Shown here: piece by piece, positions 57,994 to 63,091 of the stretch
Position numbering within the stretch: position 1 is the stretch's first letter
How the letters are laid out: every line of letters starts with the position of its first letter
Assembly: GCA_029226975.1 (NCBI GenBank)
Contig: JAQXZB010000006.1
Location: 1 to 64,000, forward strand
Reading direction: 5' to 3'
Source: Clostridiales bacterium
Lineage (GTDB): Bacteria > Bacillota > Clostridia > UBA1381
DNA length: 64,000 nucleotides
Translations under genes and position numbers: made by a program
The notes under the pieces: model-generated
The model's input: the letters and a program-made list of their open reading frames with translations, nothing else
What the model was told of the DNA's origin: nothing
The model's database searches: none

Positions 57994-60900
57994 TCAGTGA
58001 ATATCCGCAAGGGATATGATGTTTACGTTGTCCGTAGTGTAACGCTCCTCCATTACGTCAACAAGCGCGCCCACAGTGTCAAGGCTCGTCATAAGCGAGA
58101 TTGAACATTCTATGGCGGTACGTCTTATCTTGAAGCCGTCGGAGTTTACGTCATTGCCCTTTTTGGGAATGTCGATAATCAAATCAACAACTCCGCTTCT
58201 TATAATATCGAGGACATTGGGTACTCCCTCGGAAATCTTCTTTACCGTCTGTACGGGTATATCGTTTTGCTCCAAAAGCTTTGCCGTACCGCTTGTTGCG
58301 ATAAAGCCGCAGCCGCAAGCGGCAAATCTCTTGGCAATGGGCAGGAAGTTCTCCTTATCCAAATCCCTTACGGTAACGAGTATGGTTGAGCCGGGCTTGG
58401 GAATTGTTGTTCCGGCAGCCACAAAGCCCTTGTACATAGCCTCAAGATAGGTTTTGCCCACACCCAAAACCTCGCCTGTTGACCTCATTTCAGGTCCTAA
58501 GGAAACCTCTACCATGGGAAGCTTTTCCGTTGAGAATACGGGAACCTTTATGGCAACGGTATTGGTCTTTGGCGCAATGCCCGTTGAATAGCCCATATCC
58601 TTTAAGGTTTCACCAAGCATTATCCTTGTTGCAATGTCTATTACCGGCACATTGGTAACCTTTGTGATATAAGGAACGGTACGGCTCGAACGGGGGTTTA
58701 CCTCGATAATATACAGCTCGCCCTTAAACTCGATAAACTGAATGTTTATCATACCGATAACCTTAAGCTCTATTGCAATTCTGTAGGTTACGTCCTTAAT
58801 CTTTTCGATAATATCGTCCGAAACGTGCTGAGGCGGATAAATCGAGATACTGTCGCCGCTGTGTACGCCGGCTCTCTCCAAATGCTCCATTATACCCGGA
58901 ATAAGCACATCACTGCCGTCGCATATAGCGTCAACCTCCAGCTCTCTGCCGCCCAAATAACGGTCGATAAGCACCGGGTTGTGCTTGTCCTTTTGGAATG
59001 CGTCCGTAAGGTAGCGAACCAGGTCAACCTCGTTTCTTGTAATCTCCATGCCCTGACCGCCCAAAACATACGAAGGACGCACAAGCAGCGGATATTCCAG
59101 CTTGTTTGCTTCCTCAATGCCTTCCTTGACGCTCCATACAGCCTTGCCCTTGGGGCGCTTTATATCAAGCTTTTCAAGCATTTCGTCAAACTTTTCTCTG
59201 TCCTCCGCCTCGTCTATATACTTAGGCTGAGTTCCCAAAACCGGCACATTCATGTCCGCAAGGAAGTTTGCCAGCTTTATCGCTGTCTGACCGCCGAACT
59301 GAAGTATAACTCCGTCGGGCTTTTCAAGCTCGATTATATTATACACGTCCTCCTCGGTAAGCGGCTCAAAGTACAGCTTGTCCGAGGTGTCAAAGTCCGT
59401 AGAAACCGTTTCGGGGTTGTTGTTTATAATAATCGTTTCAACATTTGCCCGCTCCAGTGACAGTACGCTGTGTACCGAGCAGTAGTCAAATTCGATACCC
59501 TGACCTATTCTTATGGGTCCCGAACCGATTACGATAACCTTTTTGCGGCCGGAGGGAGAGGACTCGCTCACCTCGTCATAGGTGGAGTAATAATAGGGGG
59601 AAACCGCCTCGAACTCGCCCGCACAGGTATCAACCATTTTATATACCGGCTTTATTCCCAATTCAATTCTTCTGTTGTAGACCTCGTCGCCGCCGACACC
59701 TATAAGCTCTGCGATACCCTTATCACTAAATCCCATCTTCTTGTAACGGCGCATTGTGTCATAGTCAATATCCTCAAGCTTATAGCCCTTAAGCTCCTCC
59801 TCTGCATCCACGATATTCTTTATATGGTGCAGGAAGAACAAATCCATACCGGTAATCTCGGCAAGCTTATCAAGATTATAGTTTCTTCTTATCATTTCCG
59901 CCAGATCGAAAAGTCTTTCGTCATCGGGGATAATAACTCTTTGCTTAAGCTCCGCCATTGTTCTCTTTTTCGAGGATTCGCGCTCTAAGGTATACTGCTT
60001 TATTTCAAGCGAACGCACACCCTTTAAAAGCGAGCTTTCAAAGGTGTTGCCTATAGCCATAATTTCACCGGTAGCCATCATCTTTGTGCCCAAATTTCTC
60101 TTTGCGCCGAAGAATTTGTCAAAGGGCCACTTGGGGATTTTGGTTACCACATAGTCTATTGCCGGCTCAAAGCAGGCGTAGGTCTTGCCGGTTACGGCAT
60201 TTAATATTTCGTCAAGATTATACCCCAAAGCAATCTTTGCGGCAATCTTTGCAATGGGATAGCCGGTCGCCTTTGAAGCAAGTGCCGAGGAACGGCTCAC
60301 ACGTGGGTTTATCTCGATTACGGCATACTCGAAGCTGTTGGGGTTTAGTGCAAACTGAACGTTGCAGCCGCCCTTAATCTCAATGGAGTTGATTATATCT
60401 ATTGCAGCTTTTCTGAGCATCTGATATTCCTTATCAGCCAGTGTAAGCGCCGGAGCGACAACTATGGAGTCGCCGGTGTGTACGCCTACCGGGTCTACGT
60501 TTTCCATGGAGCATATGGTGATACAGTTTCCCGCACCGTCACGCATTACCTCGAACTCTATCTCCTTCCAGCCCTTTATGGACTTTTCCAAAAGAACCTG
60601 TCCTACTCTCGAAAGGTGAAGTCCCTGGGAAAGAATTGTGATAAGCTCCTCCTCGTTTTCGGCGATACCGCCGCCGGTGCCGCCCAAGGTGTACGCCGGG
60701 CGCACTATTACCGGGTAGCCTATCTTTTTGGCAAAGGCAATTCCGCTCTCCACATCGGTAACGATTTCCGAGGGGGCAATGGGCTGATTTGTTCTTTCCA
60801 TAAGGCGCTTAAAGCTGTCGCGGTCCTCGCCCTCCTTGATTGAGGGAATGGACGTTCCTATTACGTTTACGCCGTATTTGTCAAACACGCCCTTATCGTA

Positions 60901-61206
60901 AAGCTCACAGGCAAGGTTTAAGCCCGTCTGTCCGCCCATGCCGGCAATAACCGAGTCGGGACGCTCGCGCTTTATGATTTTTTCCAAATATTCCGCGGTA
61001 AGCGGCTCTATATAGGTGTTTGTAGCCATGCCGCGGTCGGTCATGATTGTAGCCGGGTTTGAGTTTACGAGGATTACCTCTATTCCCTCGTCCTTTATTG
61101 CCTGACATGCCTGAGTGCCTGAGTAGTCAAACTCCGCCGCCTGACCTATGATAATGGGTCCCGAGCCTATTACCAGGACCTTTTTAATTGATTTGTTTAA
61201 AGGCAT
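57994..61206 (-). CDS. carB: Carbamoyl-phosphate synthase large subunit
   Basis: 1070-residue synthase making carbamoyl phosphate for pyrimidine and arginine synthesis. The two homologous ATP-grasp halves are both visible ([21 protein letters not shown] near the N-terminus and [19 protein letters not shown] mid-protein), followed by the C-terminal MGS-like allosteric domain ([21 protein letters not shown]). Normal length. Its ATG is 1 bp after the carA stop, and its AAAGGAGG site lies in the carA end. A terminator follows. Confidence 0.97.
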
Positions 61207-61207
61207 T

Positions 61208-62260
61208 TTACTTTACCTCCTTTAAAAATCTGTCGAACACATACGCCGTATCCAAGGGTCCGGGCGATGCCTCCGGGTGGAACTGAACACTCTGTATGGG
61301 AAGCGTTTTATGTCTTATTCCCTCGCAGGTGCCGTCGTTTACGTTTACAAAGGTTTCCTCAACCCCGTCGGGATAATCCGATACTATATAATTGTGATTT
61401 TGCGAGGTTATATATACATTCCCCGTTTCCAAATCCTTTACCGGGTGGTTTCCGCCGTGGTGACCGAACTTAAGCTTTTTGGTTTTGCAGCCCAGTGCAA
61501 GACCGATTATCTGATGTCCCATGCAAATTCCGCATATGGGGAACTTTCCTATTAAAGCCTTTACCGTATCAACCGTTCCGGGAGCGTCCAAGGGGTCGCC
61601 GGGGCCGTTTGACAAAAATACCAAATCGGGGTTTATCGCCTCAATATCCTCAGGCTTTGTATCAGCCGGGAAAACGGTAATGGCACAATCACGCTTTGCC
61701 AAATCCCTTATTATTCCCTGCTTTGCGCCCATGTCGATAAACGCAACCTTTACTTTTCCCGGCTCGTTTACCGTATAAACCTCCTTTGCGGTGGTTTCCA
61801 TTATAACATTTTTATTGTTAAGGGTTTCCATGAGGCTCTTTACCTCCTCATCAGTGGGATTGCCCTTCATAATAACACCGTTCATTACGCCGTGCTCACG
61901 AATAATTCGCGTTAAGGCTCTCGTGTCCACGCCCTCAAGACCCACAACGCCCTGCTCCTTTAAGAAGTCGTCAAGGTTCATTTCGTTTCTGAAGTTTGAG
62001 GGATAATCCGCCTTTTCTCTTACCACAAAGCCCTTCAGATTGGTATGCTTTGCCTCGTTATCCTCAAGATTTATACCGTAGTTTCCTATTAACGGAAATG
62101 TCATTGTTACGATTTGTCCGGCAAAGGACGGGTCGGTCAGAGTTTCCTGATAGCCTGTCATACCGGTGGTAAACACCACTTCTCCGGCAATCTCCTTATC
62201 CGCTCCGAAAAGTCTGCCCTCAAAGCGTACGCCGTTTTCCAGAATTAACTGCGCTTTCAT
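61208..62260 (-). CDS. carA: Carbamoyl-phosphate synthase small subunit
   Basis: 350-residue glutaminase subunit that supplies ammonia to CarB. An N-terminal CarA-specific domain is followed by a class I amidotransferase domain with catalytic C246 (CGICMGHQ) and H328/E330 (HPEASPGP). GAAGGGAGA precedes the ATG. The leader (62261-62433) contains a leader peptide ORF and an intrinsic terminator, indicating transcription attenuation. With only carAB in the operon, control is probably by pyrimidines and/or arginine. Confidence 0.97.
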
Positions 62261-62300
62261 GCCTTATCTCCCTTCGTTCATCTTATACCTATAAATTTAC

Positions 62301-62330
62301 AAAAAAAAATGACAACTTTCATTGTCAATT
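62301..62330 (-). terminator. Attenuator terminator in the carAB leader
   Basis: In minus-strand RNA: TGACAA/TTGTCA core stem with outer A-T pairs, loop TGAAAG, and a 9-T run (62309-62301). It lies about 40 nt before carA, and its 5' arm begins at the leader-peptide stop codon. Confidence 0.75.
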
Positions 62331-62406
62331 AAAAACAAAAACACCAAACAGAGGCAACCATACCGGCCGCTTTACCCTTTAATTTTGCGGTATACAGCAT
62401 ATTCAT
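62329..62406 (-). CDS. 25-aa leader peptide of carAB
   Basis: ATG at 62406 with AAGGAG at 8-nt spacing, only about 30 nt after the predicted transcription start. It encodes MNMLYTAKLKGKAAGMVASV followed by WCFCF and TAA. No run of one amino acid is seen, so it does not look like an amino-acid-sensing attenuator. The last codons are U-rich (TTTTTGTTTTTAA), and the stop enters the terminator's 5' arm. This fits a model in which RNA-polymerase pausing at low UTP lets the ribosome block the terminator, as in E. coli pyrBI. Confidence 0.65.
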   Translation of the reverse strand: MNMLYTAKLKGKAAGMVASVWCFCF

Positions 62407-62439
62407 TTCTGCCACTCCTTGCGCTTGCTTATTTCTTTT

Positions 62440-62468
62440 ATTATACCACCCAAATCGATTTTTGTCAA
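62440..62468 (-). promoter_or_regulatory. Consensus promoter of carAB
   Basis: Minus-strand TTGACA (62463-62468), a 17-bp spacer and TATAAT (62440-62445): both perfect. Confidence 0.92.
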
Positions 62469-62576: not shown

Positions 62577-62605
62577 TTGACAATCCAAAGACCTTGCAGT
62601 ATAAT
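62577..62605 (+). promoter_or_regulatory. Consensus promoter of glnB-amtB
   Basis: TTGACA (62577-62582), a 17-bp spacer and TATAAT (62600-62605): both perfect. It is divergent from the carAB promoter. Confidence 0.92.
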
Positions 62606-62636
62606 AACAGCATATTAAGATTGATTTAGCACAAAG

Positions 62637-62676
62637 GCGTGTTTGCTGAGGATGAGCTCGGCAGATGCGTTTTTTT
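62637..62676 (+). terminator. Terminator hairpin in the glnB leader (attenuator candidate)
   Basis: GCTGAG/CTCGGC (62645-62650, 62657-62662) with a 6-nt loop continues into an outer 8-bp helix (62637-62644 with 62663-62670, several G-U pairs), followed by TTTTTTGTTTT. It lies between the promoter and glnB, so it should abort transcription unless relieved. Confidence 0.72.
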
Positions 62677-62740
62677 GTTTTATATCGGTCTTGTAAATAA
62701 AATTACGGCGGATAGCTTCCGCATGAAAGGGGTTTTCGAT

Positions 62741-63091
62741 ATGGAAGAAATGACAAAAATCGAAATTATCACCAGACAAAGCAAGCTCGAAGAGTTAAAG
62801 CTCGCTTTAAACGAAATCGGTATTAACGGTATGACCGTCTACAATGTACTCGGCTACGGCACCCAGAAAGGCCAGAAGCACAAGTACAGAGGCGTGGAGT
62901 ACAGCGTTGACCTTCTCCCCAAGGTAAAGATAGAGATGGTAGTATGCACCGTCCCCGTACAGAAGGTTATCGATACCGCGCTTAACATTCTGCGTACAGG
63001 CGAGATTGGTGATGGTAAGATTTTCATTTCACCCGTAACTCACGTTATTAAGGTAAGAACGGGCGAGGAAAACAAGGAAGCGCTTCTTTAA
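62741..63091 (+). CDS. glnB: PII nitrogen regulatory protein
   Basis: 116-residue PII signal protein. The T-loop (YGTQKGQKHKYRGVEYSVDL) has tyrosines at both the usual 46- and 51-like positions; PVQKVIDTALNILRTGEIGDGKIF matches the C-terminal signature. Binds 2-oxoglutarate and ATP/ADP. The open frame runs upstream to 62639 without a stop, but the ATG at 62741 has GAAAGGGG at 8-nt spacing and gives the normal length. It lies 32 bp before amtB, so it is GlnK-like by context and probably gates the ammonium channel. Confidence 0.95.
   Translation: MEEMTKIEIITRQSKLEELKLALNEIGINGMTVYNVLGYGTQKGQKHKYRGVEYSVDLLPKVKIEMVVCTVPVQKVIDTALNILRTGEIGDGKIFISPVTHVIKVRTGEENKEALL

Follow-up and report, generated by a model that had tools for sequence, protein, structure and literature searches.

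What controls carAB in this Clostridiales bacterium, where the operon is preceded by a short open reading frame (ORF) that ends at a transcription terminator? The textbook case of UTP sensing through coupled transcription and translation is pyrBI of E. coli, Firmicutes are taught as users of PyrR for their pyr genes, and the standard example of "runaway" transcription uncoupled from translation is B. subtilis. An earlier reading of the 64,000-nucleotide stretch analysed here (the window) proposed that the carAB leader is a UTP-sensing attenuator of the pyrBI type; we refer to it as the original prediction. From the comparison of sequences, we give a probability of about 0.6 to a translation-coupled transcription attenuator of this type, in which a U-rich tract would set the timing according to UTP and a helix, P1, would lock the ribosome site of the leader.

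The features of the leader are summarized in Table 1. Most of the anatomy foreseen by the original prediction is present: the consensus promoter before carAB, the 25-codon leader ORF with its ribosome site, and the U-rich tract followed by a terminator with a run of nine T were all located. The claimed overlap between the leader stop codon and the 5' arm of the terminator is true for most relatives, in which the stop lies inside the arm, but not for the core stem in the window, where 1 nt separates the TAA from the 7-bp core stem downstream and the overlap is limited to a weak A/U extension of that stem. The proposed CCGC/GCGG pause hairpin fared worse. The repeat is present, but no hairpin upstream of the U tract is conserved, and the folding z-score is about 0 on average over the relatives.

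Table 1. Positions of the carAB leader features and of the genes behind them in the window
Feature	Position	Strand	Details
carAB promoter	62440..62468	-	TTGACA-17-TATAAT, 12/12 consensus, TG before -10
Helix P1, 5' arm	62408..62427	-	Holds the leader Shine-Dalgarno AAGGAG; predicted duplex with the U tract
Leader Shine-Dalgarno AAGGAG	62420-62415	-	8 nt 5' of ATG
Leader ORF	62329..62406	-	25 codons + TAA, MNMLYTAKLKGKAAGMVASVWCFCF
Helix P1, 3' arm (anti-Shine-Dalgarno)	62338..62358	-	Overlaps the start of the U tract
U-rich tract inside leader ORF	62332..62349 (approximate)	-	Forms the end of the ORF
TTNTTT motif in U tract	62338-62333	-	Here TTGTTT
Intrinsic terminator	62301..62327	-	TGACAAT-GAAA-GTTGTCA (62327-62310) + T9 (62309-62301); part of model R1
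carA	61208..62260	-	Basis: ORF list and relatives
carB, carbamoyl-phosphate synthase large subunit	57994..61206	-	1070 aa; assigned from sequence and position, ORF list

Next to the leader, divergent PII (glnB-like) and ammonium-transporter genes with a perfect promoter were noticed at 62577-62742 (+). After this promoter and before the PII gene comes a hairpin that resembles a terminator and has a run of T (62633-62680, +), possibly a second, separate attenuator.

To what extent is this arrangement kept among relatives? From carA upstream regions of mostly uncultured assemblies we parsed 38 leaders (the window and 37 others) in 10 genera, with 37 in the window's family (nine genera) and one in a genome labelled uncultured Monoglobus. 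The start position is fixed, as the distance from the -35 box to the start codon is 57–64 nt in 37 of 38 leaders. The leader ORFs have 23–42 codons, and the frame set at the start stays open as far as the terminator in every leader (38 of 38), while the other two frames do so in 9 and 5. The commonest stop is the TGA of TGACAATG, at or in the 5' arm or the loop of the terminator. Generally, the stop codon falls within a zone from 12 nt before the 5' arm to the 3' arm (37 of 38). In a single species (L132), the leader ORF extends past the terminator. Dinucleotide shuffles keep the leader frame open with a mean probability of 0.27 per leader, and the product of these probabilities, one per genus, is about 8e-7, which is indicative only, as related species are not fully independent.

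The leader peptide itself drifts (pooled pN/pS 0.68), and indels in the ORF between close relatives are mostly multiples of three, indicating that translation rather than the peptide sequence matters. No codon run or conserved peptide was found across the leaders, in agreement with the expectation that the peptide has no regulatory amino-acid run. The alignment of relatives that the original prediction called for thus spoke for its central claim, a coupling of leader translation to termination: ORF, stop position, U tract and terminator are all kept across the 10 genera, which belong to a group of Clostridia of gut type.

A detector of this anatomy was positive in 35 of 56 carA upstream regions of the family, versus 10 of 1,586 control stretches. 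Three loci outside the family were also positive, one of which (L039) is in fact a further family member. Moreover, model R1, a short leader model with rough E-values, matched beyond chance at carA leaders only, and its search of the class (391 genomes) found the leader only in the window's family. Two matches outside the family are both at the chance level for 391 genomes, and one of them (L238) lies inside coding sequence. R1 missed the Monoglobus leader, indicating that diverged members are not detected by it. In the other pyr operons of the leader genomes the same leader was not found, and the pyrR operons there have short 5'UTRs.

The genus g9 has carA without this leader. In its loci L020, L023 and L030 no leader ORF was found upstream of carA. 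What these members of the family have before carA is an AT-rich inverted repeat (TTATTATTCAAA...TTTGAATAATATATTTTTTT) as well as a GCC...CGGCAGAAAGG region that is conserved, possibly another type of control. Upstream of a divergent carA (L138, genome G016), a strong GC-rich terminator (AATGGTGCTTGGGTGTTGACCCGGGCACCGTTTTTTTT) lies directly before the gene, again with no leader ORF. Outside the window's family, the gap between a purA-like gene and carA in Ca. Ventricola intestinavium (L102) contains an ORF, MKRTAWVNGAAQGRLFPFSIFAFSAV, with a Shine-Dalgarno, a pyrimidine-rich end and a terminator overlapping the stop. A separate promoter stands before carA after this terminator, and the similarity in anatomy is perhaps due to chance.

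Could the leader be a PyrR attenuator after all? No PyrR RNA (RF00515) was found in the window, in its genome or in any leader-bearing genome, nor was a consensus loop found in the leader or the genome of the window, and PyrR attenuation by this leader was rejected on these grounds. RF00515 occurs in 22 of 95 genomes of the order, all of them in genera g3, g7 or other families, and in the pyr operons of those leaderless relatives carA is often downstream of the PyrR RNA. The original prediction had set the locus apart from the PyrR control usual in Firmicutes; at carAB this is upheld, with neither a PyrR-binding motif nor an antiterminator in the leader, but the picture was incomplete, as the window's genome has pyrR at the head of an operon, pyrR-pyrB-pyrC-pyrF-pyrK-pyrD (names from sequence), with a 5'UTR of about 25 nt that contains no attenuator. 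The pyrR operons of the other leader genera are alike, with short 5'UTRs. The pyrR gene is kept in most leader genomes with no recognisable RNA target, while in the leader-bearing genera g4, g11 and g16 pyrR was not found (some of these genomes are incomplete). In Clostridium sp. RGIG3074 (L041), outside the family, the segment GTCCTGTGAGGCCAGAAAGG upstream of carA resembles a PyrR-binding loop by eye, and this species seems to keep PyrR control of carAB.

Other RNA-based schemes were considered too. The best upstream complement to the 5' arm of the terminator is no better than chance (mean z +0.55), and an antiterminator was therefore rejected. An amino-acid leader attenuator of the trp/his type was rejected, as there is no regulatory codon run and no competing antiterminator. 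The search of Rfam families gave no credible match in the window and its relatives.

The U-rich tract is the part of the leader where UTP could act. The mean U fraction over the leaders is 0.49 in the tract versus 0.275 in the first ORF codons, and it reaches 0.59–0.66 at -30 to -10 from the terminator arm. Phenylalanine codons in the tract are TTT rather than TTC at a ratio of 92:6 (27:22 in carAB of the window), so the preference for U acts on the RNA; this bias is partly due to pairing with the purine-rich ribosome site and is therefore not independent evidence for UTP sensing. Of the 38 leaders, 34 have the motif TT[ACG]TTT in the tract, compared with 15.3 expected from shuffles. In B. subtilis, NusG-dependent pausing uses this TTNTTT-type motif through the NusG residues N81 and T82, and the motif alone is insufficient for such pausing according to the same review (PMC12288461). 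In the NusG of the window's genome, aligned to the solved NusG u142179 (8ehq), the positions of N81 and T82 are likewise occupied by N and T.

A second property of the tract was not mentioned in the original prediction: the U tract and the Shine-Dalgarno region of the leader co-evolve. The tract begins with sequence that can pair with the leader 5'UTR, Shine-Dalgarno region included. So that pairing could be told apart from purine-pyrimidine composition, we exchanged 5'UTRs and tracts between 14 groups, which are related, and this should make the test conservative. Native pairs are stabler than row and column effects predict, with a residual of -2.42 kcal/mol (permutation sd 0.55; z -4.4, P ~2e-5). 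The swap controls, namely the first codons, promoter DNA, post-terminator sequence and the reversed tract, gave nothing significant in the same direction. By predicted folding, about 87% of the Shine-Dalgarno core is paired. The ribosome site is predicted to have an openness of 0.55 as long as the transcript lacks the tract and of 0.28 once the tract has been added, compared with 0.36 for a shuffled tract, so that P1 is just moderately stronger than composition predicts, and it is weak in Monoglobus. In 12 of 14 groups, the predicted closure of the site is stronger with the native tract than with shuffled ones. P1 and the terminator do not overlap, and hence both could form together, giving the off state. 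In pyrL of E. coli K-12 (L207), the minimum-energy fold also pairs the Shine-Dalgarno (CGGGAGGA) with the U-rich tract (UUCUUCCCG), but shuffled tracts pair at least as well.

How would these parts work together? A pyrBI-like logic, in which the ribosome blocks the terminator, is well supported for the carAB leader by the comparative sequence data, with the leader ORF presumably being translated. In E. coli, a ribosome at a stop codon a few bases from a terminator represses that terminator (PMC4824070), and the position of the leader stop in these genomes gives the same stop-near-terminator geometry. For pyrL, tight coupling over the leader is required for suppressing its terminator (PMC5021804). 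The device is likely a kinetic lock, in which the ribosome site remains open behind a slow polymerase and is closed by the U tract behind a fast one. With ample UTP, RNA polymerase would cross the U tract quickly. P1 would shut the ribosome site ahead of ribosome loading, or the ribosome would fall behind; the terminator would then fold and carAB would be off. When UTP is scarce, polymerase would pause in the tract, perhaps helped by NusG at TTNTTT, and the ribosome site would stay open for a ribosome to load and translate the leader to its stop codon. There it would cover the 5' arm of the terminator, and carAB would be transcribed. The tentative assignment of UTP as the sensed signal is based on gene identity, U content and the exclusion of PyrR; UTP would be the most economical signal, because the leader model is beyond chance at carAB alone, PyrR RNA is absent and the tract prefers U.

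The rival explanations differ mainly in what they assign to P1 and to UTP. In plain pyrBI-type attenuation, the ribosome simply trails a UTP-slowed polymerase, and P1 is non-regulatory, e.g. stabilising the short terminated RNA. The conserved ORF, U tract and stop-terminator overlap fit this explanation, and E. coli pyrL works with no known P1, its tract pairing with the Shine-Dalgarno only as well as shuffles. However, 5'UTR and tract co-evolve here with null controls, and the predicted closure of the ribosome site exceeds that by shuffled tracts in most groups, so we consider it unlikely that P1 has no regulatory role. Another explanation leaves P1 or the leader to a trans-acting factor or another metabolite (PyrR at a novel site, some unknown RNA-binding protein, arginine or a carbamoyl-phosphate product) instead of UTP-dependent polymerase speed. 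The retention of pyrR with no recognisable RNA target and the fact that carAB also supplies arginine synthesis are in its favour. Set against the presence of the leader in genera where pyrR was not found, the lack of a PyrR consensus or Rfam match, and the lack of any conserved RNA loop or amino acid of the peptide that a ligand could recognise, it appears improbable.

The leader might also sense general translation capacity, or shield pyrimidine-rich RNA from Rho, with no role for UTP. In B. subtilis, RNA rich in C and U is the preferred target of Rho during runaway transcription (PMC13323073), and the leader peptide is not specific. But R1 is beyond chance before carAB alone, which is ill-suited to a general sensor, and an intrinsic terminator follows immediately; we regard this explanation as very improbable. 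Finally, an ordinary terminator preceded by a chance ORF would be conceivable for a single leader, given the shuffle probability of about 0.27, yet it is contradicted by the comparative data, that is, by open frames in all leaders, the fixed start and the stop overlap over 10 genera, and by the rarity of the anatomy in the control stretches, which leaves it hardly any credibility. The attenuator with a UTP-timed tract and the P1 lock is thus the reading that we prefer.

It is tempting to go one step further, though at somewhat less than even odds: a clade of Clostridia may have swapped PyrR-RNA attenuation of carAB for a two-part kinetic switch, in which the extent to which a U tract slows polymerase depends on UTP (with NusG pausing) and the same tract, once made, locks the ribosome site. 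If true, a pyrBI-like device that replaces PyrR RNA elements in Clostridia would show independent evolution of the logic. Closure of the leader ribosome site by a timing tract would enable attenuation where ribosomes trail polymerase loosely, and a bacterium whose transcription normally outruns translation could still use translation-coupled attenuation. In our literature search there was no report of such a carAB leader in Clostridia, and leader-peptide systems were hardly known in Firmicutes according to one survey (PMC2965389).

Compared with known systems, we rate the carAB leader, as judged from its sequence features, as a variant of pyrBI-type attenuation rather than a confirmed family member. 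Among the defining features of pyrBI, the ORF, the terminator placement, the U tract and an irrelevant peptide with no antiterminator are found in the carAB leader, and the pause hairpin is not. Like E. coli pyrBI (pyrL), it has its own promoter, a short non-conserved leader ORF, a U-rich tract and an intrinsic terminator that would be blocked by the translating ribosome, all before a pyrimidine operon. In contrast to pyrBI, it would control carAB, in Clostridia, has no conserved pause hairpin, has an ORF that in most cases does not run through the terminator but stops at its 5' arm, and combines TTNTTT enrichment with a helix in which U tract and ribosome site co-evolve. PyrR-dependent pyr attenuators (RF00515) likewise act by attenuation on pyrimidine genes, within the same clostridial order, but the carAB leader has no PyrR-binding loop, antiterminator or anti-antiterminator and occurs in genera where no pyrR was found. 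In E. coli, the same operon carAB has promoters P1 and P2, and its pyrimidine response is exerted by UTP at promoter P1 (PMC6245113); control there is at initiation (UTP-dependent reiterative initiation, ArgR), with no leader ORF and terminator. The Polynucleobacter carA motif (SRC-12-1, PMC8632094) is likewise a candidate RNA regulator directly before carA; it comes from beta-proteobacteria, forms an imperfect hairpin that is believed to act at the level of translation, and has no ORF-terminator anatomy. Leaders of the tlrB/vmlR type in B. subtilis share a Firmicute leader ORF and a T-rich pause motif that buys time for leader translation (PMC12288461), but they answer antibiotic-stalled ribosomes, not pyrimidines.
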